The notes under the pieces: generated by a model
Databases searched by the model: none
Told to the model about the DNA's origin: nothing
Seen by the model: only the letters and a program-made list of their open reading frames with translations
Source: Deltaproteobacteria bacterium
GTDB taxonomy: Bacteria > Desulfobacterota > Syntrophia > Syntrophales > Smithellaceae
Length of the DNA: 35,205 nt
Direction of reading: 5' to 3'
Assembly: GCA_025361065.1 (NCBI GenBank)
Contig: JANYAY010000150.1
Coordinates: forward strand, 1 to 35,205
Translations under genes and position numbers: made by a program
In this document: positions 2,808 to 21,160 of the stretch, piece by piece
Layout: each line of letters begins with the position of its first letter
Numbering within the stretch: position 1 is the first letter of the stretch

Positions 2808-5432
2808 TTACTCTTCCAGGCCGTCATCATCTTCCACAGGGTGAGCCGTTGCCTTTTTGGGGATGATTTTCCTGTAAACCGTTTGCGGTGTTCTTATTTT
2901 TCCGTTAACCTGCAGCAGTCTTTCTATGGCAATACCGAAAAGTTTTTCATTCTCCTCGAGGTACGGGAGAATCAGATCCCAGTCGGCATCGGTAATCGTG
3001 GCGAACTCTCCACCGTTGAGTTGTTCATCAACAAGTTTTTTCTGCGGATCCCGGACATAAATAGCGCCGCCGGAAGCCAGGGAGAATATATTCGAACCAG
3101 GGTAAGGCGAATCGTACTCACGAATCGACCCGTCGTTATCGTCAAATCCAATGCCGTTGAGGATCACAAATCCGCCGCCATTGAGCGGATCTCCGGCCAT
3201 AAAAGACTCCGCCAGATAATCGAGAGCAGTGCCGTTGATTACGACCCGCGGCTTGCCCACGGCATTAATTAAAGGCCGCCCCGCGGCATTGCCCATGATA
3301 TAAGCCGAACCGCCTTTGGCCCCATACATGAATGTCTGGCCGACATCACCAAACACCACAAGCTTCCCTTCTTTCATTATCTGGCAGAGTTGATCCTGGG
3401 CATTGCCGTGAATATAAATTTCCATGCCGTCAATGCCGGAGGCTATATAATCGCCGGAAGCGCCGTAAATATCAATCCGCACTCCCAAAGTTCCCGGACC
3501 AAAACCACAGCCCGTGAAACGCTGGCCGCGGTATTTGTAAATAATGAAACGCTTCCACCCGAGTTTAAAAGCCTTCACAATCATCACGGCATCGCAATTG
3601 TCGCCTTCCGGCTCAAAATGTTCGGCATTAACAATCAGCGTTTTCTCATTATTCTGTGGGGCGCGCAACTGATCGCGGCAGGCCCAATCAATTTGGCTGA
3701 ACCGGGAATTGGACATTTCCGTGATCAGCGGTGTGGCGTTAAATATTTCGTCTAAACTTATTTTCAGAACATGCAGCAGTGAACTTCTCTTGATTGAGCC
3801 TGTATTATAGCGCTGGTCATTTAAAATCGTCAGGGCGTTGATGGCTATCTGTTTGCAGTCATCTTTTTTCCGGGCATAATCCTGAATTGTCTCTATGCAG
3901 AAGCGGAATGAATCAGGACTAAAGCCGCTGACGCTGTCCCGGACATAGGTAAATATATTCTGAGCCGCTGCCTGGGCATCTTTTTCAGCAAATAAAGTAC
4001 CGAGTTTTTCTTCAATCGGCTGGAATTCCTCCGTGCGTGTTATCTTCGAAGCTACGTCACAGACAACCTTATCCTGCGGAGTCTGAATAACCTTCCCGAA
4101 TTTATCAGAGCAGATCAGCTTTTTGCCGCTTTCCGTATCTGCAAGACTGAAAATAAACGCACCGCCATCGGTATGACTGCCGCCACGGGCATTCCAGTAT
4201 TTATCGGCAATCGGCCCGAAGCGCGGGTCTTCTCTTTCCAGCGAAATGAGTGTTGCATCAATGGCCTGCTTTTCCGAACAGATCAGGCCAATCTGTACTT
4301 CCCCTTCCTGCAGAGCAAAAACCTGGGGACGCAGCATCGCTGTATCCGTAATGCCGATCAGCTGAAACTGATTATTCTGCACGTCATTTTTCGCAATAAT
4401 AAAGAACCACGGCCCATCCGGTGACGCGCCGACATGATGTGTTTGAATAGCTTTATACAGTTCCTGCTTTTCTGCAGGAAGCATATCAAAATCCATTTCC
4501 GACGTGGGCGCCAGAGCCTCGATGACGTATTCGAGCGGATATTTATAGACCCTGCTCCATAAATCGAGAAGCAGCGCTGCTTCTTCGGTATCGGTAAGAA
4601 ACAACGGGGTGTAGTTCCGCTGCCTCAAATACTCGTTGATAGCCTGATAATTGGCAAAATCACCGTTATGCACCAGTGCTTCATTGAGTGCGGAAAACGG
4701 ATGGCAACCACCGGGATGCCAGACACGGCCGCGGGTCGGATAGCGCTGATGGGCCACCCAGACATGAGCTTTGAAATCATCCAGCTTATAATAGCGGACA
4801 ACATTTTCCGCATAGCCCACGATTTTCAGGATCATCATATTCCTGCCGTGAGACATGACAAATGCCCTTTTTTCACCGAGAGAGGCATAATAATGAGTGT
4901 TGATCTTAAAGCTGTTCTGATAAACAAACTCATCCTCCGCATCCCGTCTGGTAAGCGAAGAAAATTTGTTGTCAGCAATAAACCGATCGAGCACATCTTC
5001 CTTAACGCGCACAAAATAACGCATGATATCCGGCGGACGGACATCCAGGCCGATGCTGCGATGGTCATCAATAGTCGCCAGTTTTTCCGCCTTATCAATT
5101 TTAAAATACGGCTTGATGTAGGTATCTTCAATCTCCGCCATTGCGCCGGCATCCAGCAAAGCAATATGCAGCATGTAGTCGTCATCAAGGATCTGCCGGG
5201 AAACACCGAGCGCCTCGGGGACAAAACCTACGGCGCCGATGCCGCCGCCTTTCCCGTTGCCTCTGTTGTGCATCTGCACGGACGGCTCAAAGATGTTTTT
5301 CCCGGTTACAGGGATAGAACAAATAAAACCGGTAACTCCACAACCGCCTTCTTCTTCCGTATTCTGATCCAGAGGCGGCACCTGACTGCAAATCTCTGTC
5401 CGTGATCCGATTATTTTTTCAACATTATCCAT
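2808..5432 (-). CDS. Glutamate synthase subunit: class II glutaminase fused to GXGXG domain
   Basis: An 874-residue protein and the last gene of the minus-strand operon. After a short leader, Cys31 (EEEGGCGVTGF) is the predicted N-terminal nucleophile of a class II glutamine amidotransferase; RYPTRG, HNGDF and the DTEEAA segment further along fit that domain. A linker of about 200 residues follows. Residues about 627-760 form the right-handed beta-helix GXGXG domain of glutamate synthase (GCGFGPGTLG, YGASGDYIASG, GDVGQTFMYGAKGG, MGNAAGRPLINAVG). The protein should release ammonia from glutamine and pass it to the FMN subunit. It lacks the FMN synthase domain, which is encoded next door. Classical GltB carries all domains in one chain and archaeal-type enzymes split them into separate genes; this two-domain fusion lies between those designs. 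ATG 5432 follows GGAG with seven bases between. Confidence 0.85.
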   Translation of the reverse strand: MDNVEKIIGSRTEICSQVPPLDQNTEEEGGCGVTGFICSIPVTGKNIFEPSVQMHNRGNGKGGGIGAVGFVPEALGVSRQILDDDYMLHIALLDAGAMAEIEDTYIKPYFKIDKAEKLATIDDHRSIGLDVRPPDIMRYFVRVKEDVLDRFIADNKFSSLTRRDAEDEFVYQNSFKINTHYYASLGEKRAFVMSHGRNMMILKIVGYAENVVRYYKLDDFKAHVWVAHQRYPTRGRVWHPGGCHPFSALNEALVHNGDFANYQAINEYLRQRNYTPLFLTDTEEAALLLDLWSRVYKYPLEYVIEALAPTSEMDFDMLPAEKQELYKAIQTHHVGASPDGPWFFIIAKNDVQNNQFQLIGITDTAMLRPQVFALQEGEVQIGLICSEKQAIDATLISLEREDPRFGPIADKYWNARGGSHTDGGAFIFSLADTESGKKLICSDKFGKVIQTPQDKVVCDVASKITRTEEFQPIEEKLGTLFAEKDAQAAAQNIFTYVRDSVSGFSPDSFRFCIETIQDYARKKDDCKQIAINALTILNDQRYNTGSIKRSSLLHVLKISLDEIFNATPLITEMSNSRFSQIDWACRDQLRAPQNNEKTLIVNAEHFEPEGDNCDAVMIVKAFKLGWKRFIIYKYRGQRFTGCGFGPGTLGVRIDIYGASGDYIASGIDGMEIYIHGNAQDQLCQIMKEGKLVVFGDVGQTFMYGAKGGSAYIMGNAAGRPLINAVGKPRVVINGTALDYLAESFMAGDPLNGGGFVILNGIGFDDNDGSIREYDSPYPGSNIFSLASGGAIYVRDPQKKLVDEQLNGGEFATITDADWDLILPYLEENEKLFGIAIERLLQVNGKIRTPQTVYRKIIPKKATAHPVEDDDGLEE

Positions 5433-5646: not shown

Positions 5647-7128
5647 TTATTCACTGTAATCTATATGCTCCAGTAAATCCGTCCGGCCAACAAGTTCTCT
5701 TACGCTCTTCATGCCAAACTTCTGGAGTATTTCGACTAGCTGAATATTCCAGGCATGATACATATTGGTGAGACGCTGTGTAGCCCATTCTTCATTAAAC
5801 AGATCGGCAAGCTCCGAGTCGGTGGAGGCAATACCCCGCGCACAACCTCGTCCTGATTCACAATTTCCGCAGCGGACACATTCGAGGGAAACCATCTCCG
5901 CCGTGCCGATAACCGCCCCGTCAGCGCCCAGGCAAATTGCTTTGACCAGATCATGCGCGCTTCGAATACCGCCGGAGGCAATGAGCGTTATTGCATCCCG
6001 CGCACCCTCGTCCTTTAAAAAATTATGAACCTTTGTTATGGCATATTCTATGGGCATGGCAATATTTTTCTTGGCAATATCCGGCGCTGCACCCGTGCCG
6101 CCGTAGCCGCCGTCAATATGAATGATATGGGCGCCGGCATAGTAGGAACCGACGGCAACCATGTCCACATCGTTGGGAGTGGAAACCTTAACGGAAACCA
6201 GCGCATGAGGATTGATCTCTTTAATCCAGTCAATGTGCTTCTTGTGATCTTCGATAGAATAGACCGAGTGAAAGGGAAATGGTGAAAACAATGATGTCCC
6301 CTTGACCGCTTCCCGCATCCGGGCAACACTGGCCGTGTTTTTTTCTCCCAGCAGATGCCCGCCCAGTCCCGGTTTGGCACCCTGGGCATATTTGAACTCT
6401 ACTATTTTTACCCGCTGGATGGTTTCTTCGCGTACACCAAACAGACCGGTCGCGACCTGGGTAATTACGTGGTTGTCATATGGTTCGAGCACTTCCGGGT
6501 ATCCACCTTCACCGGTACAGGTAAAAGTATTCCATATTGTTGCATTGCGGGCCTTGGAAACCATGGTGGGCAAACTTACCGAGCCAAAGGACATTCCGCC
6601 GCCATAAACAGGTGTGGAAATAACAATTTCCGCCCGCCCGTCATTTCTCCGGTTCAGGGGAATTTCCGTGGATATTTCAAACTTATCAATTTTGGGCCGG
6701 CCGGCCGGGAACTTGAGACGCAGCTTGTCGAAGCCACCGCCGGAATTACCTGTATTATACTCCAGATCTTTGCGCTCCGGAGGATAACCGGTTTCCGCCA
6801 TGATCCAGGTTGCAGTAATCATGTCCGCCGTCCAGCGGTAATCACCCAGCGTTTCATACATGGGGTTAACTGTCAGGCTTAATGCTTTGCGCGGACATTT
6901 GGCCACGCAATAGAAATCATTATTCTGGCATTCAAAGCCGATGCATTTATAGTCAATCGGCGGCTTCACCTTATTGTGCCCTTCAGTCCGTTCATGAACT
7001 CCATGAGGACATGCTTCGGCACAAGTACCGCAGCTGATGCAGGCACTCGACCGGACAACTTTGTATTTAGGCACCTGGTGCTTAAATCGCGAAGGCATTT
7101 TTTTAATTTTCACAGTTGATGGTTTCAT
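5647..7128 (-). CDS. Glutamate synthase, FMN/Fe-S synthase subunit (archaeal type)
   Basis: A 493-residue protein. The N-terminus carries a ferredoxin-like module with two Cys sets: C30, C33, C36, C40 and C62, C67, C74, C78. The rest is the TIM-barrel glutamate synthase domain that binds FMN and 2-oxoglutarate: VYGGGMSFGS, EGGYPEVL, GAKPGLGGHL, HIDGGYGGTGAAP, IASGGIRSAHDL. A further Cys cluster at C417, C420, C423 and C429 occupies the place of the [3Fe-4S] site of GltB. It should reductively aminate 2-oxoglutarate with ammonia from the glutaminase subunit, taking electrons through its Fe-S chain. No NADPH-binding GltD is nearby, so the donor is probably ferredoxin or the FAD protein of this operon. 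Its ATG overlaps the stop of the upstream paralogue as ATGA, implying coupled translation. Confidence 0.9.
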   Translation of the reverse strand: MKPSTVKIKKMPSRFKHQVPKYKVVRSSACISCGTCAEACPHGVHERTEGHNKVKPPIDYKCIGFECQNNDFYCVAKCPRKALSLTVNPMYETLGDYRWTADMITATWIMAETGYPPERKDLEYNTGNSGGGFDKLRLKFPAGRPKIDKFEISTEIPLNRRNDGRAEIVISTPVYGGGMSFGSVSLPTMVSKARNATIWNTFTCTGEGGYPEVLEPYDNHVITQVATGLFGVREETIQRVKIVEFKYAQGAKPGLGGHLLGEKNTASVARMREAVKGTSLFSPFPFHSVYSIEDHKKHIDWIKEINPHALVSVKVSTPNDVDMVAVGSYYAGAHIIHIDGGYGGTGAAPDIAKKNIAMPIEYAITKVHNFLKDEGARDAITLIASGGIRSAHDLVKAICLGADGAVIGTAEMVSLECVRCGNCESGRGCARGIASTDSELADLFNEEWATQRLTNMYHAWNIQLVEILQKFGMKSVRELVGRTDLLEHIDYSE

Positions 7129-8534
7129 ACGTTTTTTGTTTCTCTTTTTTTAAATAATTTTCCAAATGTTTCGTTATCAATTTCTTCAAAGAAGATTGCT
7201 CTTCCTGTTTCACCGCGCAGACGGCGCGCTTCACGAATACCCATAGCGCCCATCACCTCGAGGAGCTGCGAGTGCCATGCACTCATGAGATTTATCATCC
7301 TCTGTTTAACTGTTTTAACCGTAATTTTTTCCAGTCCATCGGGCAGAACAATTATCTTCTCCGGTTCTTCATAAATCCTGGCGCCCAGAGCAATGAGCAG
7401 GGGTAAATCTATCGCCGTTAAATCCGCACCACAGAGCATTGCTTTAGGTACATGCTCGGCCATGGCAATACCTCCGGAGGCAATGATAGTAACTTCATCG
7501 CGGATCCGGTCATCCACCAGTTTCAAGTGCACGGCACGGATAATATCTTTGATAATCCGGTAGCTTTCGCCTGCCGATTCCGGAATTTCCCTGCCGTGGT
7601 AATCAGCTACAATATGGATTATTTCCGCGCCGCCCTGCGCCAGCCGCGAAACAATACCTTCCACAGATTTCGTAACCGGAACGCGGATGATCGTCAGCGC
7701 ATTGCCGGCCTTTTTAATTTTGTCTTTTAAGGCCGGCAGTTGTTTTTCCAGTTTGCCGGTATATTCCAGTGCCACAATTCTGGCATTTTTTATCAATCCC
7801 TGATGTTTGTCAATTTCTTCCGGAGTCAGGAGAACAATGATGTTGTTTATATATTTTCCAATCTTCGGCGTAATTTCTTTTACCGGCAGGACAATAAATG
7901 TGTTGAGCTCTGCCGCCGCCTTTACCTGTGCCATCTTGACATTCGGACTCAGATTATCCAACGGAATATCAAAGATGATAGGGATCGGAACATCAACAGT
8001 CGGATGAATCTGCGACAGCAATTGCCCCTTGTCGCCAAAAGTCAGGTGATTGAGTTTCCTGCCCAACTCCACCGATGTACTGATATATTCCCGCCCATGA
8101 ATTCCGTCCCGTGTCGGACGAACAATCTCCGACATATCAGTCCACATGCTGTCAAACCCGTCTCCGGTAAATGGTCCGCGGTAGCCGGCGCCGGTAACGG
8201 GAACCTTGCCGTCTTCAGCCTGCTTCCACAGGGTGATAAATATATCCGATTTCCAGTATGAACCACCGATATTTAAAAAATCCTTGTCCAGGGATTTTTC
8301 GAGCGCTCCCCGCGGGCATTCCTGAATGCACCGGAAACAATTTCTGCAGACCATGGTGTTCGGATCGGCCATTTTTCGGGGATCATCTTTTCCCCGCTTA
8401 TGTGCTTCATAGATGCATACCTTTGTACATTTACCGCAATTGATGCAGTTTTCTCCCCGTTCAATCTTGAATTTGAACAAAGAATTCAGATTAAGCGGCA
8501 TTAACTTAGGGTGAATATGATATTTTTTCGGCAT
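7125..8534 (-). CDS. Degenerate glutamate synthase-like FMN/Fe-S paralogue
   Basis: A 469-residue protein collinear with the subunit encoded next to it but lacking key parts. The N-terminal ferredoxin module is intact in cysteines (C30, C33, C36, C40 and C63, C66, C69, C73), although the Pro usual after the fourth Cys is Ile. The barrel keeps a likely FMN phosphate-binding stretch (IIASGGIAMAEHV and CGADL). The glycine-rich GGYGGTGAAP motif is replaced by IVADYHGREIPE, and the Cys cluster expected near residue 400 is absent (GARIYEEPEK instead). It is therefore unlikely to be a second glutamate synthase; an electron-transfer or structural partner is more plausible (inference). ATG 8534 follows GGAGAAAACT, and its stop overlaps the next start as ATGA. 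Confidence 0.75.
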   Translation of the reverse strand: MPKKYHIHPKLMPLNLNSLFKFKIERGENCINCGKCTKVCIYEAHKRGKDDPRKMADPNTMVCRNCFRCIQECPRGALEKSLDKDFLNIGGSYWKSDIFITLWKQAEDGKVPVTGAGYRGPFTGDGFDSMWTDMSEIVRPTRDGIHGREYISTSVELGRKLNHLTFGDKGQLLSQIHPTVDVPIPIIFDIPLDNLSPNVKMAQVKAAAELNTFIVLPVKEITPKIGKYINNIIVLLTPEEIDKHQGLIKNARIVALEYTGKLEKQLPALKDKIKKAGNALTIIRVPVTKSVEGIVSRLAQGGAEIIHIVADYHGREIPESAGESYRIIKDIIRAVHLKLVDDRIRDEVTIIASGGIAMAEHVPKAMLCGADLTAIDLPLLIALGARIYEEPEKIIVLPDGLEKITVKTVKQRMINLMSAWHSQLLEVMGAMGIREARRLRGETGRAIFFEEIDNETFGKLFKKRETKNV

Positions 8535-8632: not shown

Positions 8633-10483
8633 TTAGTTATTTCGCTCCACCATCTCCCAGTAATCCTTGCTATCGTCAACCTTTTTAAGAAATGCACTGA
8701 TCTTATCTTCAGGACGGCCAAATTTAGATTCCACCCTCTTTTCCAGCGCATCCCAGAGCGTCATCAGTTCCAGATTGGTCTGACAAATCTCTTCGCAGCC
8801 CTTGCAATGCATGCACATAAATACATTTTCCGCCTCTTCTTTAGTCACCGGCCGGCCTTCAATGAGTTTTTTCGCCAGAGCAATTTTACCTTTTGCCGTG
8901 ACCTCCTCATTTTTGGTGACAAGGTAGGCGGGACACACTGCAATACAGTTCCCGCATTTGGCACAGGCATGAGTTGTCAACTCAAAATCGAGACTATCTA
9001 TTTTCTCATCCTTTCCCAGAAGCAGCGTCGCAACTTTACCGATAACAGGCGACAGCAATATCATCATTTTCATGGAAATGCCGAAGATTGCGGGCCGGAA
9101 GACGAGCGCCGGAATATTCATAAATTTTGATTGAATGCCGAAAAACTTGCCCGGATTCATGATGTTATTCGGATCAACTTTTGCTTTATAAGCCACAAGA
9201 TCATGTTTCTTTTCGTTGTTGTAAAGATGATTAATGAAGGCGGCATTCCAGATACCCAACCCATATGGTTCTGCGCCAAAGTCAATGGCCGTGGTAGTGA
9301 GCATGGAGACAAGCGGCATACTTATAATATACTTCTTCTTCCTGGAATCGCAGAGGAAGTTAGTCATGATGAGTGCTATTTTTTCATCAATGATGTAGGA
9401 ATCAATAAATATTTCTACGCCGAAATCGGCACCCAGCTTTTTCGCCTTGGCAATAAAGGCCGCGGCCTTCGTTATGGGAATAATACTTTCGCTGGCCAGA
9501 ATCGTCGGTCCCAGACGCTTTGTTTTCATGCCGAAGAGGCGTTCATTCCATAAATAACTGGCGACATAACGGGGTGCTTCTTCCATATTGCCGGATTGCT
9601 CTATATATTTCATGAACTTTTGATCTTCTTCAATGCTGCCGAACTCCAGCAGAACTCCGGCACTCTTCTTAAACACCGAGGAATGCATGAGTTGGTTTAC
9701 ATCGGTTAGGTGATTGGCATCCAGAAGCCGGATGACATTAGCGTTAATGTTTTGGACATCTTTTATTTTGACAAATTTTTCAATAAAGGAGAATCCGGCT
9801 TTTTCGTCCGGAAAATAAAACAGGTGAGGATAAGAACCTTGCGGAACATCCCGTAATTTAAGATTAACTTCAGCAATAATTCCCAATTCTCCTTCCGTAG
9901 ATACAAAGTATTTAAACTCCGGATCATTGGGAGTAATCTTTTTAGTCTCACCGGACGGCATAATAACCGTCATCGATACAATCTGCTGGGACAAGTGCCC
10001 GTAACGAAAACTATTGATGCCGTAGCCGCCAGTGGCAATCCAACCGGCCACTGTGGAAAACTTACTCGAGGGATAGGTCATCAGACATAAACCCTCTTTT
10101 TTGGCCAGAATATCAATATCGCTCCACCTTGCGCCCGCTTCCACGGTGACAGTCTTTTGCGGTACGTTAAGATAAAGGATTTTTCTAAAAGGAGACAAAT
10201 CAACGACAATCCCGGCCCTGGTCGGAATTACGCCGCCAAAACCCCATGATGCAGCACCTCTCGGTATTACCGGAATTTTATTATCATTGGCAAAAACCAG
10301 TACTTTTTTTATCTCTTCGGCATTTTTCGGCTGGACTACAAAATCGGGTTGGATTTCAAAAAATGTTTTTGTCATAATCGCCGGAACGTCGCCGATGTCC
10401 TGACTGTACATTTCTTTTTCTTCGACTTTATCGATAATTTTTATATCGCCGGCGATTTTTCTAAATTTATCTGCTAGTTTCAT
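8633..10483 (-). CDS. FAD-linked oxidoreductase fused to 2x[4Fe-4S] domain (GlcD-GlcF-like)
   Basis: A 616-residue protein and first gene of the operon. Residues about 45-210 form a PCMH/FAD_binding_4 domain (VQPKNAEEIKKVLVFAN, IPRGAASWGFGG, VVDLSPF, ATGGYGINSFRYGHLSQQI). A FAD-oxidase C-terminal region follows. Residues 504-616 carry two [4Fe-4S] motifs, C507/C510/C513/C517 and C557/C560/C563/C567, resembling GlcF or heterodisulfide-reductase-type modules. Relatives oxidise 2-hydroxyacids such as glycolate or lactate and pass electrons to Fe-S partners. Here no lactate or glycolate genes are near and all downstream genes are glutamate synthase parts. It may be the electron-input subunit in place of GltD, but this is inference from context; a separate 2-hydroxyacid dehydrogenase remains possible. 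No membrane anchor is evident. Confidence 0.8.
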   Translation of the reverse strand: MKLADKFRKIAGDIKIIDKVEEKEMYSQDIGDVPAIMTKTFFEIQPDFVVQPKNAEEIKKVLVFANDNKIPVIPRGAASWGFGGVIPTRAGIVVDLSPFRKILYLNVPQKTVTVEAGARWSDIDILAKKEGLCLMTYPSSKFSTVAGWIATGGYGINSFRYGHLSQQIVSMTVIMPSGETKKITPNDPEFKYFVSTEGELGIIAEVNLKLRDVPQGSYPHLFYFPDEKAGFSFIEKFVKIKDVQNINANVIRLLDANHLTDVNQLMHSSVFKKSAGVLLEFGSIEEDQKFMKYIEQSGNMEEAPRYVASYLWNERLFGMKTKRLGPTILASESIIPITKAAAFIAKAKKLGADFGVEIFIDSYIIDEKIALIMTNFLCDSRKKKYIISMPLVSMLTTTAIDFGAEPYGLGIWNAAFINHLYNNEKKHDLVAYKAKVDPNNIMNPGKFFGIQSKFMNIPALVFRPAIFGISMKMMILLSPVIGKVATLLLGKDEKIDSLDFELTTHACAKCGNCIAVCPAYLVTKNEEVTAKGKIALAKKLIEGRPVTKEEAENVFMCMHCKGCEEICQTNLELMTLWDALEKRVESKFGRPEDKISAFLKKVDDSKDYWEMVERNN

Positions 10484-10568
10484 GTTTTATCTATCTCTTC
10501 CGTAACCATAATTAATAATAAATCATTGAGGCTCTCTTGATCAATGTTGCGAGCGACACTTAACAAGC

Positions 10569-10584
10569 AGCAAAATGAATGCCA
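10569..10584 (-). promoter_or_regulatory. Sigma-54 (-24/-12) promoter of the glutamate synthase operon
   Basis: Read on the minus strand the sequence is TGGCATTCATTTTGCT, matching the sigma-54 consensus TGGCAC-N5-TTGCW with one change. The start would be near 10558, giving a leader of about 75 bases to the ATG at 10483. Sigma-54 control fits nitrogen-assimilation genes. Confidence 0.7.
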
Positions 10585-10695
10585 ACGGATAACTTTAAAT
10601 GAAGGAGTGGCTGATAATATAACAACAAAGTGAATTATTTTAAAGAAATTTAAATTTAGGAAGAAGAATCCGCTAACTATTAATAATTACATAGA

Positions 10696-10746
10696 CACAA
10701 TATTGTTCTTTTGCTGCATTCACAATACATAATTGTTCTTTTTTTG
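10696..10746. promoter_or_regulatory. Paired repeat, candidate enhancer (activator) sites
   Basis: Site 1 contains the perfect palindrome ACAATATTGT (10697-10706). Site 2 contains ACAAT-N5-ATTGT (10722-10736). Both run into TTGTTCTTTT, at 10703 and 10733, a 30-base offset close to three helical turns. They lie about 160 bases upstream of the glutamate synthase start and about 200 upstream of the glnN start, the usual range for a sigma-54 activator such as NtrC. They do not match the NtrC consensus, so the activator is unknown. Confidence 0.45.
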
Positions 10747-10895
10747 TGTTTCAATGTGTGTATATTATCCACATTAAGCCCAATGCATACAGTTGAATAT
10801 TGATACCTGAATATAATGATATGCTCGCATTTAACCAATTATTAAGGTGGACGAATGGCGGTAACTTGTTATATCGTAGCAACAGAATAAAGGCG

Positions 10896-10911
10896 TGGCA
10901 TATTTTTCGCA
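10896..10911 (+). promoter_or_regulatory. Sigma-54 (-24/-12) promoter of glnN
   Basis: TGGCATATTTTTCGCA keeps the invariant GG and GC with correct 10-base spacing, and departs from TGGCAC-N5-TTGCW at two positions. The predicted start is near 10923, about 114 bases before the glnN ATG. Confidence 0.55.
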
Positions 10912-11036
10912 GTAAGCAAATCAGTTAAATTAATGCGATCTTTTTAGAAGCTGAGCGTGTTTCTTAAAGATTTGATCGAAAATACCTTGTTGGAAAAATT
11001 TTAAAATATTTTTCAAGATAACTCAATGGAGGAATT

Positions 11037-13205
11037 ATGAAAAAAGCAAAGCCAATCACCGCAGCGGAAAGAAACTACTTAATTGAAAAAGAAAAATTCG
11101 TTCCCGTCTCCGAATACTACGGCGAGGACACCTTTAATAATAAGGTAATGAAAGAAAAACTTCCGAAAGATACTTATAAAAAACTTATGGAAGCAATTAA
11201 TGAAGATAAAACCCTGGATATTGCAACAGCGGATATCGTCGCTCATGCAATGATGGAATGGGCGCTGGAAAAAGGCGCCACCCATTTTGCCCACTGGTTC
11301 CAGCCGATGACAGGCATCACCGCGGAAAAACACGATGCTTTTGTTGATCCGGTTGGTATCGGAGAAGTCATGGAAAAATTCTCCGGAAAGCAGCTTGTTC
11401 AGGGTGAACCGGATGCCTCCAGTTTCCCCAGCGGCGGTATCCGGGCAACGTTTGAAGCCCGCGGCTATACTGCCTGGGACATGTCCTCGCCGGCATTTAT
11501 CCGCCGCAACGGCATCTCCACTACTTTATGCATTCCCACAGCCTTTATTTCCTTTACCGGTGAGGCCCTGGATAAAAAAACTCCCCTCCTGCGGTCCAAT
11601 AAAGCGGTTAACAAAAGCGCCGTGAATATGCTGAAACTTCTGGGCAATAAAAGTGTAAAAAAGGTTTTTTCCAACCTGGGGCCGGAGCAGGAATATTTCC
11701 TGATCGATATGGATTACTTTTTCAACCGTCAGGATCTGGTGCTTGGTGGACGAGCCATAGTTGGCGCACCACCGGCAAAAGGCCAGGAACTGGAAGATCA
11801 GTATTTCGGCAGCATCAAAGAAAGAGTATCCTCCTATATGCATGACGTGGAAGAGGAACTCTTTAAACTTGGCGTCCCGGCCAAAACGAGGCACAATGAA
11901 GTTGCGCCCAGCCAGTTTGAAATTGCTCCGGTATATGAAGAAGCCAATCTGGCCGTTGACCATAATCAGATCGTTATGGACACATTGAAGTCAGTAGCAA
12001 AAAAGCACCATCTGGCCTGTTTACTTCATGAAAAGCCATTTGCCAAAATAAATGGCTCCGGCAAGCATGTCAACTGGTCACTGGCCGACAACAATGGAAA
12101 CAACTTGTTGAATCCGGGTAAAACACCTCATGACAACATTCAATTCCTGGTTTTTTTAATTGCCACAATTCGCGCTGTCTATAAAAATGCCGACATACTG
12201 CGGGCATCTGTAGCAACTTATGCTAATGACCACCGGCTGGGTGCTAACGAGGCTCCTCCTGCCATTATATCTATCTTCCTTGGCGATCAGCTTTGCAATA
12301 TACTGACAAATATCGAAAAGGGAATAGTTACCAAAGCAACTAATGCGGAAATCATCGATCTCGGAATTTCATCGCTGCCTATTGTCAGCAAAGACAATTC
12401 CGACCGCAACAGAACTTCGCCGTTTGCCTTCACCGGCAATAAATTTGAATTCCGGGCAGTAGGTTCATCGCAATCTATTTCTTTCCCGGCTACGGTAATC
12501 AATACGATTGTTGCGGAAAGCCTGGATTATCTGTCTGAAAAAATCAAAACCAAAACCGGCAATATCAACCAGATTGTCTTCGAAGTATTGAAGAAAGAAA
12601 TTAAGGAGATCAAACCGATCCTTTTCAATGGTGATAACTATACAAAAGAATGGGAAAATGAAGCTGCCAAAAGAGGGCTGCCGAATGATAAGACCACCCC
12701 TGTTGCTCTGAAGGCTCTAGTTACCGACAAAGCCCTTAATCTTTTCGAAAAATATCAAGTACTTTCCAAAGTCGAACTCAAATCAAGATATTTAATTTAT
12801 CTCGAAAAATACATCAAAGAACTGGAGATCGAAGTAAAATGTCTGAACAATATCTGCATTAATAAGGTGATCCCGGCGGCCATCGCCTATCAAAAAAATG
12901 TGGCCGGGACAATTAATGAAACGAAGGCTGCTCTGGGCAGCTCCGCTGTTCTTTCTTCTGAACTGGAAATCCTGAAAAAAATAGTTGACCTGATCAATAA
13001 AATATATGCTGCAAATAAAGATATTCTGACTAAAGTAGAGGCGGCCAATGCCGTTCACGATGAGCAGAGAAAGGCCGAGATGCTTTGCAATAAAGTAAAA
13101 ACATCCATGAACGAACTGCGCGATGACGTTGATGAACTCGAAGGCCTGGTGGACGAAGAAATGTGGCCCATGCCGAAGTTCTGGGAAATGCTGTTCATCA
13201 GTTAA
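11037..13205 (+). CDS. glnN: Glutamine synthetase type III
   Basis: A 722-residue enzyme that makes glutamine from glutamate, ammonia and ATP. The length of about 720 residues and motifs are those of GSIII, not GSI: HFAHWFQPMTG near the N-terminus, SSFPSGGIRATFEARGY, LGPEQEYFLID, HNEVAPSQFEIAPVYEEANLAVDHNQ, HEKPFAKINGSGKHVNWS, and GNKFEFRAVGSSQS. GSIII proteins form dodecamers and are often induced under nitrogen limitation. The C-terminal 200 residues are largely helical with coiled-coil character. The ATG follows GGAGG with short spacing. It is transcribed from the sigma-54-type promoter upstream, divergently from the glutamate synthase operon, and is followed 72 bases later by a second, unrelated-class glutamine synthetase. 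Confidence 0.95.
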   Translation: MKKAKPITAAERNYLIEKEKFVPVSEYYGEDTFNNKVMKEKLPKDTYKKLMEAINEDKTLDIATADIVAHAMMEWALEKGATHFAHWFQPMTGITAEKHDAFVDPVGIGEVMEKFSGKQLVQGEPDASSFPSGGIRATFEARGYTAWDMSSPAFIRRNGISTTLCIPTAFISFTGEALDKKTPLLRSNKAVNKSAVNMLKLLGNKSVKKVFSNLGPEQEYFLIDMDYFFNRQDLVLGGRAIVGAPPAKGQELEDQYFGSIKERVSSYMHDVEEELFKLGVPAKTRHNEVAPSQFEIAPVYEEANLAVDHNQIVMDTLKSVAKKHHLACLLHEKPFAKINGSGKHVNWSLADNNGNNLLNPGKTPHDNIQFLVFLIATIRAVYKNADILRASVATYANDHRLGANEAPPAIISIFLGDQLCNILTNIEKGIVTKATNAEIIDLGISSLPIVSKDNSDRNRTSPFAFTGNKFEFRAVGSSQSISFPATVINTIVAESLDYLSEKIKTKTGNINQIVFEVLKKEIKEIKPILFNGDNYTKEWENEAAKRGLPNDKTTPVALKALVTDKALNLFEKYQVLSKVELKSRYLIYLEKYIKELEIEVKCLNNICINKVIPAAIAYQKNVAGTINETKAALGSSAVLSSELEILKKIVDLINKIYAANKDILTKVEAANAVHDEQRKAEMLCNKVKTSMNELRDDVDELEGLVDEEMWPMPKFWEMLFIS

Positions 13206-13277: not shown

Positions 13278-14609
13278 ATGATTATCTGCTGGACTCCGCA
13301 AGATGTCTTAAAGGTTGTGAAAGAGAAGAACGTAAGCTTCATTCAACTCTGGTTCACAGATGTTCTGGGAATGCAAAAGATTTTCAGCATCAGCCCCTCC
13401 GAACTGGAAGAGGGAATGGCGGAAGGGATGGGCTTCGACGGCTCATCAATTGAAGGATTCTGCCGCATTGAAGAAAGCGATATGATCGCCCTGCCCGATC
13501 CCACGACTTTTCAACTAATCGCCTGGCGGCCGAGCGACCGTCCGGTGGCCCGCATGTTCTGTGACATCCAGACTCCCGACGGCATTCCTTATGAAGGCGA
13601 CCCGCGTTATGTCCTGAAACGGATGCTCGAGAAGACAAAAAACATGGGCTATACCTTCAATGTGGGACCGGAACTGGAATATTTCTATTTTGCTAATGAT
13701 TCCTCCACCGAATATCTGGATCATGGCGGGTATTTTGACGGACTGCCCGTTGATCGGGCTACCGATTTGCGCCGGCAGACAATTTTTGCCCTGCAGGATA
13801 TGGGGATTCGCGTTGAGTATTCGCATCATGAAGTAGCGCCGAGCCAGCACGAAATTGATTTGCGTTATGATGAAGCACTGGCTATGGCGGATAAGGTTAT
13901 GACTTATCGCACAACCGTAAAAGAAATTGCCCGGCAGAACGGCGTTTACGCTACTTTTATGCCTAAACCGGTTTTCGGGGAAAACGGCAGCGGCATGCAT
14001 ACACATCAGTCTTTATTCCTGGATAACAGTAATGCCTTCTTTGACGGCAAAGATAAGTATCATCTTTCCTCGCTGTGTAAACATTACATTGCCGGTCTGA
14101 TGAAGCATGCACCGGAAATTACGGCAATTTGCAACCAATGGGTAAATTCCTATAAGCGCCTTGTTCCTGGTTACGAAGCGCCGGTTTATGTTTCCTGGGC
14201 CCGTCGCAACCGCTCCGCCCTGATTCGCGTCCCGATGTACAAACCGGGAAAGGAAAAAGCAACGCGCATTGAATTTCGTTCACCCGATCCGGCCTGTAAT
14301 CCTTATCTGGCCTTTGCCGTTATGCTGGCAGCCGGTCTGAAAGGTATCGAAAAGAAATATGAATTGCCTGACCCGGTGGAAGAAGATATCTATGAAATGA
14401 ATGAGAAAGCACGCCTCAAGGCCGGAATAGTATCGCTCCCCGGCAGCCTCCAGGAAGCAATCTCGCTTACAGCAAAAAGCACGCTCGTTCGCGAAACTCT
14501 GGGCGAGCACATTTTTGAGAAGTTCATAGAGAACAAGAAACTCGAGTGGGACAATTTCCGTATTCATGTCAGCAAGTTTGAGATCGACCGTTACTTGCCA
14601 ATGCTTTAA
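13278..14609 (+). CDS. glnA: Glutamine synthetase type I, alpha class
   Basis: A 443-residue glutamine synthetase. Signatures in order: GFDGSSIEGF (53-61), GPELEYFYF, HHEVAPSQHEIDLRYDEAL, KPVFGENGSGMHTHQSLF, NSYKRLVPGYEAPVYVSWA, RIEFRSPDPACNPYLAFAVML. The length and the absence of the NLYDLP-type tyrosine loop near residue 390 (here KKYELPDPVEEDIYE) mark it as GSI-alpha, which is not controlled by adenylylation. Arg63 in FCRIEESD matches the B. subtilis Arg62 used in glutamine feedback inhibition. The ATG at 13278 follows TAAGGAGGT with good spacing; an ATG at 13271 opens another frame. It probably shares a transcript with glnN and ends at a terminator. Confidence 0.96.
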   Translation: MIICWTPQDVLKVVKEKNVSFIQLWFTDVLGMQKIFSISPSELEEGMAEGMGFDGSSIEGFCRIEESDMIALPDPTTFQLIAWRPSDRPVARMFCDIQTPDGIPYEGDPRYVLKRMLEKTKNMGYTFNVGPELEYFYFANDSSTEYLDHGGYFDGLPVDRATDLRRQTIFALQDMGIRVEYSHHEVAPSQHEIDLRYDEALAMADKVMTYRTTVKEIARQNGVYATFMPKPVFGENGSGMHTHQSLFLDNSNAFFDGKDKYHLSSLCKHYIAGLMKHAPEITAICNQWVNSYKRLVPGYEAPVYVSWARRNRSALIRVPMYKPGKEKATRIEFRSPDPACNPYLAFAVMLAAGLKGIEKKYELPDPVEEDIYEMNEKARLKAGIVSLPGSLQEAISLTAKSTLVRETLGEHIFEKFIENKKLEWDNFRIHVSKFEIDRYLPML

Positions 14610-14769: not shown

Positions 14770-15911
14770 ATGCCCCTGTTAAATAAAAACCTTAGCGCCT
14801 TGCTGGTACTGGAAGACGGCAGTTTTTTCGAAGGTTTCGCTTTTGCCGGAAGTGGCGAAACCATGGGAGAAGTAGTTTTTAACACAGGCATGACCGGTTA
14901 TCAGGAAGTGATTACCGATCCCTCCTATAAAGGCCAGATAGTGGTAATGACCTACCCCCTGATTGGCAATTACGGCATTAATGAAGAGGACATGGAGTCG
15001 GCCGGCATTCATCTGGAAGGTTTTGTTGTTAAGGAATATCAACGAAGCCCCAGCAACTGGCGGATGCGCCAGAGCTTAAAATCATTTTTAGAAGATCAGG
15101 GTAAAATCGGCATGGAAGGGATCGACACCCGTGCGCTTACCCGACGCATCAGGCTTTCCGGTGCCATGAAAGGGATCATTTCCACCGAAACTAAAGATGT
15201 TGCGGCGCTGCTTGCAAAAATCAGAGCATATCCCGGTTTGGTTGGCCGTGATTTAGTATGGGAAGTAAGTTGCCCCAAACCTTATTTATGGAAAAAAGGT
15301 GCACCGAACAGCGGGAAAATCCCCGTCAAAAAGCCGGGAAAAAAGTTGCGGGTGGTTGTCCTGGATTGCGGCGTTAAATACAATATTTTAAGACTTCTGG
15401 AAAATAACGGTTGTGAGGTTATCGTTGTGCCGGCTGTTTCTTCCGGAGACGATATTCTGGCCTGGAAACCGGATGGAGTTTTACTCTCCAATGGCCCGGG
15501 CGACCCCTCCGCCCTCCCCTACATTGTGAGACCGCCCGCGCACTCGTGGGAAAGCTGCCCGTGTTCGGCATTTGTCTGGGACAGCAAATTATCGGTCAGG
15601 CGATAGGCGGTTATACCGAAAAACTCAAATTCGGCCACCACGGCATCAATCAGCCGGTAAAAAATTTACGCACCGGGCGTATCGAAATAACTTCACAAAA
15701 CCATGGATTTGTTGTTGCCCCCGCTTCAGTAAGCACCAAAGCCAATAATACTTATAATAACTTAAATGATAAAACTTCCGAAGGCATGCAAATGTCCAAG
15801 ACAATAAGTGTGCAGTATCATCCGGAGGCGGCACCTGGTCCACACGATTCCGAATACTTATTTTTGCAGTTTGTGCAGATGATGAAAGAGGAAAAGGAGA
15901 AATCATCTTGA
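14770..15911 (+). pseudogene. carA: Carbamoyl-phosphate synthase small chain, split by a -1 frameshift
   Basis: CarA hydrolyses glutamine and channels ammonia to CarB for carbamoyl phosphate (arginine and pyrimidines). The first frame runs from ATG 14770 and carries the N-terminal domain (FNTGMTGYQEV, YPLIGNYG, GIDTRALTRRIR) and the start of the class I amidotransferase (LDCGVKYNILR, LLSNGPGDPSALPYIV), then derails to a stop at 15606. The homologous sequence resumes one frame over at about 15529 (ETARALVGKLPVFGICLGQQ), with catalytic Cys codon 15573-15575 and HPEA near the end, stopping at 15909-15911. One missing G (GTGGAG read as GTGAG at 15526-15530) explains it exactly. Both halves are otherwise well conserved and the neighbours are intact, so a sequencing error or very recent mutation is likely. 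The stop overlaps the guaA start. Confidence 0.9.
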
Positions 15912-17437
15912 TCTTAATCATTGATTTTGGTTCTCAATATAACCAGTTGATTGCCCGCCGGGTGCGGGAACATCATGTTTACTGCCAAATTGAACCGCCG
16001 AATATTTCTCTTGCCGCCATCAAAGCACTCAAGCCCGAAGGCATTATCTTATCCGGAGGGCCGGCCAGCATTTACTCCAAAGGCGCACCGCGTGTCGATA
16101 AAGGCATCCTTAAACTGGGCATTCCTGTTCTGGGTATCTGTTATGGCCTCCATTATATGGTTGATTCTCTGGGAGGAAAAGTTATCGGGTCCAGCAAACG
16201 CGAATATGGTTTTGCCGAGCTTCTAGTGAAAAGTCAAAAAAGAATTTTCTCCGGTGTGAATAAAAAAACGCAGTGCTGGATGAGCCATGGCGACACAATA
16301 GGCAAGCTTCCGACCGGATTTGTCATTACTGCAACAACGGAAAACACTCCGGTTGCCGCCGCCGAAGACGTCAAACACAATTTCTACATCCTGCAATTTC
16401 ATCCGGAAGTTGTTCATACATCGGCCGGTAAAAAAATACTGGCGAATTTCCTGTTTGAAATCTGCCATTGTAAAAAATCCTGGTCAATGAAATCATTTGT
16501 TAAACATACCATTGCCGAAATAAGGCAGCAGGTGGGTGACGGCAAGGTAATTTTAGGCCTTTCCGGCGGCGTTGATTCTTCCGTTGCGGCTGTTTTGCTG
16601 CACCGGGCCATAGGCCGTCAGTTAACCTGCGTTTTTGTCGATAACGGAGTGCTGAGAGCCGGTGAAGCCGAACGTGTCATTCAAATGTTCAAGAAACATT
16701 TGCAGATTAATTTGCACTTTTCCCGTTCGGGCCGGTTGTTTTTAAGCAAACTCAAAGGGGTGACTGATCCGGAAAAAAAGCGAAAAATAATCGGCCGCAC
16801 TTTTATTGAAATTTTTGATCAGGAAGCCCGGAAAATAAAAAATGTGAAATTTCTGGCGCAGGGAACTCTTTACCCTGATTTAATTGAATCGCGTTCCGCT
16901 TTCGGCGGTCCCAGTGCGGTAATTAAATCTCACCACAATGTCGGCGGCCTGCCTAAAAAAATGAATTTGCAACTGGTCGAACCGCTCAAGCATCTGTTCA
17001 AAGATGAAGTGCGGCTTTTGGGCAAAGAGCTGGGGCTGGCCGATGATGTGATTTTGCGACAGCCTTTTCCCGGGCCGGGACTGGCTATCCGCATCATCGG
17101 AGAAGTGACTGCGCAACGTTTATCTGTCTTACGCAAAGCCGATACGATTTTGATCGAAGAAATCCGGACCGCGAATCTGTACTACAAATTATGGCAGTCT
17201 TTTACCGTATTGCTGCCTCTCAAAAGCGTCGGCATCATGGGCGATCAGCGCACGTATGAAAACATCGTGGCCATCCGTGCAGTCAACAGCGACGACGCGA
17301 TGACTGCCGATTGGACCAGATTGCCGCAGGAACTTCTGGCACGTATATCCACCCGAATCATTAATGAAGTGCGCGGCATCAACCGGGTTGTCTATGATAT
17401 CAGCTCCAAGCCACCCAGCACAATTGAGTGGGAGTAA
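15908..17437 (+). CDS. guaA: GMP synthase (glutamine-hydrolysing)
   Basis: A 509-residue enzyme converting XMP to GMP with glutamine amide nitrogen. Residues 1-190 form a class I amidotransferase: [25 protein letters not shown], nucleophile Cys78 in [10 protein letters not shown], and QFHPEVVHT. The ATP pyrophosphatase domain follows with the P-loop [12 protein letters not shown], then the dimerisation domain ending in the family signature PPSTIEWE. The start is TTG 15908, overlapping the carA stop as TTGA and preceded by AAAGGAG. It is unusual in sitting between carA and carB, but every gene of this cluster uses glutamine. Confidence 0.96.
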
Positions 17438-17442
17438 AGCGT

Positions 17443-17529
17443 TCCCCCTCCCCTCAATCCCCTCCCGCGAAGGGGAGGGGAAGTACAAGACGTACAAAAT
17501 ATTTCCCTCTCCCTTATGAGGGGAGAGGG
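17443..17529. repeat. Two C/G-rich hairpins after guaA
   Basis: First hairpin: CCCCTCCC (17459-17466) with GGGAGGGG (17473-17480). Second hairpin: CCCTCTCCC (17505-17513) with GGGAGAGGG (17521-17529). The first, with its leading TCCCCCTCCCCT, recurs as an imperfect direct repeat at 17883-17922, so the two copies bracket the DUF559 gene. Confidence 0.7.
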
Positions 17530-17551
17530 TTAGGGTGAGGGTGATTAACAC

Positions 17552-17938
17552 TTGTTCAAGCCCATAACAACAGCGAGAAATCTTCGAAAAAAATCGACGT
17601 GTACGTAACAGCTATTATGGTCACGGCTTAGAGCAAGACAAATTGAGGGATGTAAATTTAGAAGACAGACACCGATCGGTAAATATATCGTAGATTTTGT
17701 TTGTCATGAGGTGCGGTTAATTGTTGAAGTGGACGGCGGACAACATTTAGAAAATGTACAACAAGACAAGATAAGAGATAAATGTCTTGGAGAGCAAGGT
17801 TACAAGATTTTAAGATTCTGGAATAATGAAGTATTAACGAACATAGAGGGAGTATTAGAAGTAATCAGAGATAATTGCAAATCTCCCCCTCCCCTTAATC
17901 CACTCCCATCAAGGGAGTGGAAAATAACAGTTAGGTAA
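17552..17938 (+). pseudogene. DUF559 (PD-(D/E)XK-like) protein with an internal stop
   Basis: Reading from TTG 17552 gives ARNLRKKS, a TAA at 17606-17608 (codon 19), then QLLWSRLRARQIEGCKFRRQ, TPIGKYIVDFVCHEVRLIVE, VDGGQHLENVQQD, and GYKILRFWNNEVL. This is the full DUF559 domain, related to very-short-patch-repair-type endonucleases, with the D...E...DGxxH pattern present. Relatives have TDAEKLLW where the stop lies, so the N-terminus has decayed. The last 15 or so residues (PPPLNPLPSREW) are encoded by the C-rich repeat. The frame ends six bases before the carB GTG. Such genes often travel with these repeats. Function is unproven; it is probably a passenger. Confidence 0.75.
17883..17922. 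repeat. Second copy of the C/G-rich hairpin repeat
   Basis: TCCCCCTCCCCT followed by CCACTCCC/GGGAGTGG arms. It is an imperfect direct repeat of 17443-17482, about 440 bases away, and overlaps the end of the DUF559 frame. Confidence 0.7.
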
Positions 17939-17944
17939 GAAGAA

Positions 17945-20900
17945 GTGCCGAAAAGAACCGACATAAAAAAAATACTGCTTATCGGCTCCGGGCCGATCAT
18001 TATCAGCCAGGCCTGCGAATTCGATTATTCCGGGACACAAGCCTGTAAGGCCCTGCGCGAAGAAGGCTATGAAGTTATTTTAATCAACAGCAATCCGGCG
18101 ACAATTATGACCGACCCGGAAATGGCCAACCGCACTTATGTAGAGCCCATTACCCCGGAAGCAGTCACAAAAATTATTGCCCGCGAAAGACCGGATGCGC
18201 TCCTGCCTACACTGGGCGGGCAAACTGGGTTAAATACGGCCGTAGCACTGGCCGAAAGCGGCGTTCTGGAAAAGTACGGCGTGGAAATGATCGGCGCTTC
18301 GCTCCCTGTTATTTACAAAGCGGAAGACCGGGAAAAATTCCGCAATGCCATTGAAAAAATCGGTTTGAGAATGCCAAAGAGCGGTTTTGCCCACAACATA
18401 CCAGAAGTAATGAAAATTGCCGGGGAAATCGGTTTTCCGATAATTGTCCGGGCATCTTTTACCCTGGGCGGCACCGGCAGCGGAGTGGCTTACAACCGTG
18501 AAGAGCTCATGGAAATTGCCCAAAGCGGCCTGGATGCCAGCATTATCCAGGAAGTAATGGTTGAAGAATCCGTCCTCGGCTGGAAAGAATACGAGCTGGA
18601 AGTAATGCGCGACAAAGCGGATAATGTTGTTATTATCTGTTCTATTGAAAATTTCGACGCGATGGGCGTGCATACGGGCGAATCAATAACTGTTGCTCCG
18701 GCCCAGACGCTGACTGATCGCGAATATCAACATATGCGCGATGCGGCCATAGCCATCATGCGGGAAATCGGCGTCGAAACCGGCGGTTCCAATGTCCAGT
18801 TTGCCATCCATCCCGAGACTGGCGAAATGATCGTCGTGGAAATGAATCCCCGCGTATCGAGATCATCAGCTCTGGCTTCCAAAGCAACGGGTTTTCCGAT
18901 AGCGAAAATTGCCGCCAAACTGGCGGTGGGTTATACGCTGGATGAAATTCGCAACGACATTACCCGGGAAACAATGGCCTCGTTTGAACCGACTATCGAT
19001 TACTGTGTCGTGAAAATACCGCGCTGGACATTTGAGAAGTTCCCGGAAACGGAAGATTTATTAACAACATCGATGAAATCGGTTGGCGAAACTATGGCCA
19101 TTGGCCGTACTTTTAAAGAAGCGCTGCAAAAGGCCGTCCGTTCACTGGAAATCGGCCGTTTCAGTCTGGTATATCCGCTGCCTGAGGATCTATCGGATAA
19201 TAAAGAATTATTAAAAAGCAAACTGATAGCACCGAACTCATTGCGTTTATTTTATATAGCCGCCGCCCTCCAAAAGGGGGTAACCGTAACTGAAATACAG
19301 CAACTGACAAAAATTGATCCCTGGTTTTTACATCAGATTCGGGAAATTGTTGAGGCTGAGGAAGAATTAAAAAATTCCGTGCCTTCCGTGGAATTGCTCC
19401 AAGCGGCAAAGAAAATGGGCTTTTCCGATCGCGCTCTGGCCTATGTCTGGGGAAAAACTGAAGCGGAAATTCGCCGCTGGCGAGAAGAGGAAAAAATCAT
19501 CCCGGTATACAAGCTGGTGGATACCTGTGCCGCGGAATTTGAAGCTTATACTCCCTACTATTATTCTACCTATGAGACGGAAAACGAAACACGCCCTTCC
19601 GTCAAAAAGAAAGTGGCCATTATCGGCGGCGGCCCTAATCGCATCGGTCAGGGTATTGAATTTGACTACTGCTGTGTTCACGCTTCCTTTGCCTTGAGGG
19701 AAGAGGGCATAGAGAGCATCATGATCAACTCTAATCCGGAAACAGTCAGTACCGATTATGATACTTCCGACAAACTCTTCTTTGAGCCGGTTACACTCGA
19801 AGATGTTTTACATATTTTGCAGGCAGAGAAACCGGAAGGGGTAATCGTCCAGTTTGGCGGCCAGACGCCCCTGAATCTGGCCCGCGGACTGGAAGCCGCA
19901 GGAGTTCCTATTCTCGGTACTTCACCCGATGCTATTGACCGGGCGGAAAATCGCGACCGCTTTCAGGAAATTGTCAGAAAGCTTAATCTTAACCAGCCGG
20001 ACAATGACACGGCAAGAACAATAGAAGACGCACTGATCGCGGCCGAACGAATCGGCTATCCGGTGCTGGTACGTCCTTCTTATGTGCTGGGCGGCCGTTC
20101 CATGGAAATCGTTTACGACCCGGAAACGCTGACATCTTTCATGGGTAAGGCAATGCTGGTTTCTCCGGATCATCCGATACTGATCGATAAGTTTTTAGAA
20201 GACGCCATTGAAATTGACGTCGATGCCCTGAGCGACGGGACAAATACGGTAGTGGCCGGTATCATGGAGCATATCGAAGAGGCGGGAATTCATTCCGGCG
20301 ACAGCGCCTGTATTTTGCCGCCGCTCACCATACCTGCCGGTTTACTGGAGTTAATCGAAAAGCAAACAATAATGCTGGCCCGTGAATTAAAGGTCGTCGG
20401 CCTCATGAATATTCAGTATGCCATTAAAGAGGGGACATTGTATGTTCTGGAAGTTAATCCCCGGGCATCCCGCACTGTACCCTTTGTCAGTAAAGCTATT
20501 GGCGTTCCTCTGGCCAAGCTCGCCACCAAGGTCATGCTCGGGAAAACTCTTCCCCAATTGGGTTTTACTAAAACCATCAAACCGGAATATGTTTCAGTCA
20601 AGGAGGCTGTCTTCCCTTTTAACCGCTTTCCCAATGTAGATATTCTGCTGGGGCCGGAAATGAAATCCACCGGTGAGGTCATGGGTATCGACCATTCTTT
20701 CGGGTTAGCTTTTGCCAAGTCGCAAATGGCGGCCGGTTTCAAAATGCCTGTTGCCGGCACTGTATTTATCAGTGCGCACGATTATCATAAAGACAAAATA
20801 GTGCCGGTTGCCAAGATCTTCCAGGAGATCGGGTTCAAAATACTGGCCACGCGCGGGACAGCCGAACATCTGGAAAAGCATGGCATTAAAGCGCAGATGG

Positions 20901-21157
20901 TTTTTAAAGTCAGCGAGGGCCGGCCGAATATTATTGATCACATTAAAAACGGCGATATTTCCATGGTAATCAATACCAGCCTCGGGCGTAAATCTACCCG
21001 CGACGCTTATCATATCCGGCGGGGCGCGCTTACTTATAACATTCTTTACACGACGACCATCGCCGGCGCACGCGCTTTATGTGAGGCCACGCAGGCAATT
21101 ATTAACGAAGATTGGCAGGTGTGTTCGTTGCAGGAATACCATAACAAAGGTTGCTAA
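17945..21157 (+). CDS. carB: Carbamoyl-phosphate synthase large chain
   Basis: A 1070-residue enzyme that makes carbamoyl phosphate from bicarbonate, ATP and the ammonia supplied by CarA. It has the duplicated architecture of the family: a first ATP-grasp half ([20 protein letters not shown], then [26 protein letters not shown]), an oligomerisation segment around residues 400-550, a second ATP-grasp half ([48 protein letters not shown]), and a C-terminal MGS-like allosteric domain (about 935-1070). GTG 17945 is the only start after the in-frame stop of the DUF559 frame six bases upstream, and [11 protein letters not shown] is the usual CarB beginning. No strong ribosome binding site is visible, perhaps because the DUF559 cassette replaced the original leader. 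Confidence 0.97.
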
Positions 21158-21160
21158 GAT

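Follow-up and report, generated by a model that had tools for sequence, protein, structure and literature searches.

Precedents for sigma-54 control of ammonia assimilation

In Escherichia coli, glnA is transcribed from tandem sigma-70 and sigma-54 promoters (glnAp1/glnAp2), and paired NtrC sites lie approximately three helical turns apart; NtrC is a response regulator with the site TGCACC-N5-GGTGCA. The locus described here resembles this arrangement in its paired sites three turns apart and in a sigma-70-like element preceding the sigma-54 box of glnN, whereas the E. coli system has NtrC as its activator, a different site and a promoter facing one way.

Closer lineages provide partial precedents. 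In Desulfovibrio vulgaris, the predicted DVU1949 regulon comprises nine operons labelled nitrogen metabolism and transport in the accessible part of its description (PMC4641369). As described there, DVU1949 is, like the candidate activator reported below, a one-component sigma-54 activator with a GAFTGA motif and proposed autoregulation. In contrast, its own neighbourhood consists of ior genes rather than glutamine synthetase (GS) and glutamate synthase (GOGAT) genes, and that part of the account describes no shared divergent GS/GOGAT control region. In Geobacter sulfurreducens, RpoN promoters were placed at GS (glnB-glnA, by primer extension) and, by prediction, at GOGAT (GSU1235-1239) (PMC2725144). 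Both enzymes are thus under RpoN control, as proposed here, although GS and GOGAT occupy separate loci and the activator is unnamed in the accessible text of that study. A literature search on GnfM of Geobacter, another candidate precedent, found nothing. The divergent orp operons of D. vulgaris, controlled by the activator DVU2106 together with IHF (PMC3897727, PMC4641369), share with our locus two back-to-back sigma-54 promoters, one cognate activator and a related lineage; they differ in that the genes are unrelated and IHF sites have been demonstrated for orp only.

Gene organisation of the locus

The whole 35,205-nucleotide stretch that was analysed (hereafter, the window) is part of a Syntrophales genome: its GlnN protein shares 94% identity with that of HGW-Deltaproteobacteria-12, and Smithella sp. 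M82 was among the close matches. The minus side carries a split ferredoxin-type GOGAT operon led by an FAD/FeS protein, with glutamate synthase domains distributed over three polypeptides, and glnN followed by glnA is transcribed divergently on the plus side.

2808-5432, minus strand: class II glutaminase and GXGXG domain, the remaining GOGAT part
5647-7128, minus strand: ferredoxin and glutamate synthase FMN-barrel domain (PF01645)
7125-8534, minus strand: ferredoxin domain and partial glutamate synthase domain
8633-10483, minus strand: FAD-binding/4Fe-4S protein, first gene of the GOGAT operon
11037-13205, plus strand: glnN, type III glutamine synthetase (PF12437, PF18318)
13278-14609, plus strand: glnA, type I glutamine synthetase (TIGR00653, above cut-off)

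Downstream of glnN-glnA, carA, guaA, carB and purF (14770-22588) form a run of glutamine-consuming enzymes, and the same carA, guaA, carB order was found downstream in two relatives (G001 and G014). In the window, carA (14770-15911) is broken into a 278-aa reading frame and a 121-aa reading frame in another frame, the frameshift lying near 15540-15600; it is intact (380 aa) in relatives, and the split represents either an assembly error or a pseudogene. Further along (22731-24593), an acetate CoA-transferase-like domain is apparently fused to a protein acetyltransferase (Pat-like) domain.

Two predicted outward-facing sigma-54 promoters conserved among relatives

The initial annotation had placed a sigma-54 box on each strand between the two operons, and both were found exactly at the positions claimed:

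10569-10584, minus strand: sigma-54 -24/-12 box of the GOGAT operon, TGGCATTCATTTTGCT; predicted start near 10558, leader of approximately 75 nt
10896-10911, plus strand: sigma-54 -24/-12 box of glnN, TGGCATATTTTTCGCA; predicted start near 10922, leader of approximately 115 nt

Both have GG at -24 and GC at -12 separated by a 10-bp gap, and the genome contains an rpoN gene. These were the only two matches to the pattern TGGCAYNNNNNTYGCW in the 35-kb window (0.22 expected); genome-wide, the pattern matched 25 times, including these two, and the reversed-pattern control matched six times.

Conservation across relatives, the check proposed in the initial annotation, was found for both the boxes and the repeats with their 30-bp spacing. 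Among 29 relatives with usable DNA upstream of glnN, eight kept both outward-facing boxes (G001, G003, G004, G008, G010, G012, G016 and G053) and none kept one box alone. Across eight genomes belonging to a single family, the glnN box was invariant at 16 of 16 positions, more strongly conserved than any other 16-base stretch of the region; 69% of columns were invariant in the GOGAT box and only 9% in the remainder. The glnN box reads TCGC where TTGC is usual, which could be taken to mean that the boxes arose by chance in intergenic DNA rich in AT. However, when the nine intergenic regions (the window and the eight relatives) were each shuffled 1000 times with dinucleotide composition retained, any box appeared in 1-6 shuffles per 1000 and both boxes in none of the 1000 for any region. 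Together with the invariance of the glnN box, this refutes the chance explanation, to which we attach a negligible likelihood.

The sequence upstream of the glnN box contains a further conserved element:

10848-10875, plus strand: putative sigma-70 promoter, TGGACG-16-TATATC, recognised by alignment and conservation; candidate start at approximately 10882

Most relatives have TATAAT in place of the TATATC of the window. A consensus sigma-70 scan returned no score at 10848-10875, so the assignment is based on conservation. This element may also feed glnN with basal transcription in the manner of glnAp1/glnAp2 of E. coli.

The control region appears to have been kept while the enzymes it drives were replaced. 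In G001, a canonical gltB-gltD operon takes the place of the FAD/split type on the divergent side, and the box and both sites described below are retained. In G014, the opposite side encodes a type I glutamine synthetase that has an outward box to itself, and downstream lies a 72-codon fragment similar to the tail of glnN. Since the enzymes differ in these two genomes and the control region is kept, synteny suggests that the region outlasted enzyme changes on either side.

Paired palindromes between the promoters

The initial annotation had also reported TTGTTCTTTT twice, exactly 30 bases apart, as is indeed the case (10703-10712 and 10733-10742). The repeats are more aptly viewed as a pair of palindromes, ACAATATTGT (10697-10706) and ACATAATTGT (10727-10736), the latter imperfect in the window, and the putative sites were delimited as follows:

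10697-10708, no strand assigned: putative activator site A, palindrome ACAATATTGTTC
10727-10738, no strand assigned: putative activator site B, ACATAATTGTTC, 30 bp from A (three helical turns)

The consensus of the palindrome is ACAAWWTTGT, and the spacing between A and B was 30-31 bp in all nine genomes. A conserved AT-rich block, GTGAATTATTTTA (10615-10645), lies between the GOGAT box and site A, a position at which IHF would be anticipated; no clear IHF match was found in this block.

The position of the pair relative to the two promoters was markedly asymmetric. The centre of site A lay 142-144 bp from the GOGAT start in seven genomes, 136 bp in one and 218 bp in one, the last being seven helical turns further than usual. 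Site B, by contrast, lay anywhere between 108 and 314 bp from the glnN start, and the phase was not constant. The fixed distance on one side and the variable distance on the other imply that the site pair was built around the GOGAT promoter. Accordingly, glnN would use the pair at varying distances, which is permissible given that sigma-54 enhancers tolerate variable distance, and the variable distance and phase imply that glnN might depend less on it. Taken further, the sites might serve the GOGAT promoter only; the sigma-54 promoter of glnN would then receive its activation from weak sites or from another location and be supplemented by the sigma-70 promoter. The conserved distance and helical phase to the GOGAT start, the sigma-70-like element before the glnN box and a site pair at a lone GOGAT gene in another genome (G052) are all consistent with this alternative. 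However, no other conserved palindrome was found near the glnN box, which is itself the most strongly conserved part of the region, and the distance tolerance of enhancers weakens the argument from spacing. We therefore consider restriction to the GOGAT promoter unlikely and favour shared use of the pair. One bound activator would then drive both promoters, a reading tempered by the fixed distance being kept to the GOGAT promoter only and by the conserved sigma-70-like promoter that may also feed glnN.

A NifA-like protein as the candidate activator

When twelve genomes were searched for paired sites, the GS/GOGAT region and a few other loci were recovered. Among these, a carbamoyl-phosphate synthase operon in G052 carries paired sites and lies directly behind an enhancer-binding protein gene. 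The counterpart of this protein in the genome of the window (G000) showed 73% identity, whereas the others showed approximately 52% or less over shorter stretches:

G000:C110:34487-36121: candidate activator, NifA-like enhancer-binding protein with GAF, AAA+ and Fis helix-turn-helix (HTH) domains, approximately 530 aa counted from its likely ATG

The protein has the domain layout of NifA, with a GAF sensor, a sigma-54 AAA+ domain with GAFTGA and a Fis HTH, and its best NCBIfam match was TIGR01817 (494.9 bits). However, this score falls below the nifA cut-off (528.85), and nifH was absent above cut-off from G000 in a profile search of 59 genomes, four of which contained it. The candidate was therefore rejected as NifA proper.

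Orthologues of the candidate were found in 43 of the 59 genomes, often 3-14 kb from glnN. With a scoring matrix derived exclusively from the GS/GOGAT sites, all 22 scorable orthologues gave 12.7-20.4 just before the activator start codon at a nearly constant offset. The candidate gene of G000 itself scored 17.6, compared with ≤ 11.2 at the 22 other enhancer-binding protein genes; of the 23 enhancer-binding proteins of this genome, it is the only one to carry the site. The initial annotation had suspected an activator other than NtrC, and this is supported by the association of the motif with the NifA-like GAF-AAA+-Fis protein. NtrC itself is disfavoured as the activator: no TGCACC-N5-GGTGCA occurs between the promoters, where the conserved sites are ACAAWWTTGT, and the best TIGR01818 (NtrC) match in the genome (448.5 bits) was below the cut-off of 558.6.

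Some NtrC-like response regulators in this genome nevertheless score fairly high, and the palindromes might be bound by such a regulator or by a repressor, the NifA-like protein being merely another target. A motif may co-occur with a regulator gene without being bound by its product, and a single site right at the activator start codon is what a repressor target would also show. Several features argue against this reading: the site offset is nearly equal in all scored orthologues, the activator gene lies directly 5' of a two-site target operon in many genomes, and none of the other 22 activator genes of the genome carries the site. A different regulator thus seems improbable, and the NifA-like protein remains our preferred candidate.

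Other loci carrying the motif

At amtB-glnK of G000, a sigma-54 box is accompanied by the palindrome GAACAAAATTGTTC at a distance of 83 bp, and paired sites were found at the amtB genes of G010 and G053. A lone site precedes an acyltransferase-like gene in G000 (L285:2650; G000:C127); in G008, the same acyltransferase-like gene is divergent from amtB with a site between them (L288:2796; G008:C50), and the lone site resembles the remnant of a relocated amtB.

Immediately after the activator gene, sister genomes have a site pair with 29-bp spacing and then a sigma-54 box, TGGCAYGRCTYTRGCA, conserved in 16 of 17 aligned sequences. The strict sigma-54 pattern missed these promoters because their -12 element reads TRGCA, and alignment recovered them. 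The first gene of the operon behind this box is glutaminase-like and is joined by a ferredoxin-like gene, the assignment of the opening gene to GOGAT reflecting weak similarity; gltD-like genes lie directly 5' of glnN in these genomes.

In G052, a site pair is also present at an operon containing a true NifA, a separate protein near nifH that passes the NifA cut-off. The pair is located at L218:3926-3967, upstream of a porin-NifA operon. This arrangement suggests that NifA expression in G052 is turned on by the nitrogen activator, much as NtrC switches on NifA in Klebsiella.

A locus search for the site pair among distant relatives with type III glutamine synthetase (GSIII) found little. A kiritimatiellial locus (L056) has a site pair upstream of glnN and a 46% identical activator downstream, another locus (L038) has a pair near glnN, and a third (L074) has one pair. 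The module may extend beyond Syntrophales.

Proposed mechanism

The best explanation of these findings, and one that we regard as likely on the basis of comparative sequence evidence, is that the region controls ammonia assimilation in both directions through sigma-54 and is served by a NifA-like activator at paired palindromes. RpoN-RNA polymerase would wait as a closed complex at the two outward-facing promoters of the split GOGAT operon and glnN-glnA, and the one-component enhancer-binding protein would bind the paired ACAAWWTTGT palindromes 30 bp apart. When nitrogen is scarce, the activator might oligomerise at the paired sites, and looping of the DNA could then allow either promoter to be opened. 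The same activator probably controls amtB-glnK and, via the single site at its start codon, its own expression. Counting against this explanation are the variable spacing to the glnN start, the imperfect site B of the window and the number of enhancer-binding proteins encoded in the genome (23), some NtrC-like response regulators scoring fairly high. The sequence features reported in the initial annotation were thus confirmed, and its interpretation was largely supported.

More broadly, it is somewhat probable that this NifA-like one-component activator is the general nitrogen-assimilation regulator of Syntrophales, replacing NtrC. Its two-site enhancer between divergent GS and GOGAT genes would then have outlived enzyme swaps on both sides (G001 has canonical gltBD, G014 has type I GS, and sister genera have a third type of operon), always as paired sites with a sigma-54 box.

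Biological significance

Given the precedents in Desulfovibrio and Geobacter, the Syntrophales system represents a well-supported new variant. It offers a concrete nitrogen-control system for syntrophic bacteria, which are hard to grow and manipulate, and since the candidate activator, its site, the promoters and the likely targets are all named, the proposal is testable. The locus is also a case in which a control region appears to have been kept while the enzymes it drives were replaced, and its relatives provide a natural set of distances with which to probe the limits of spacing and phasing for a bacterial enhancer acting bidirectionally.
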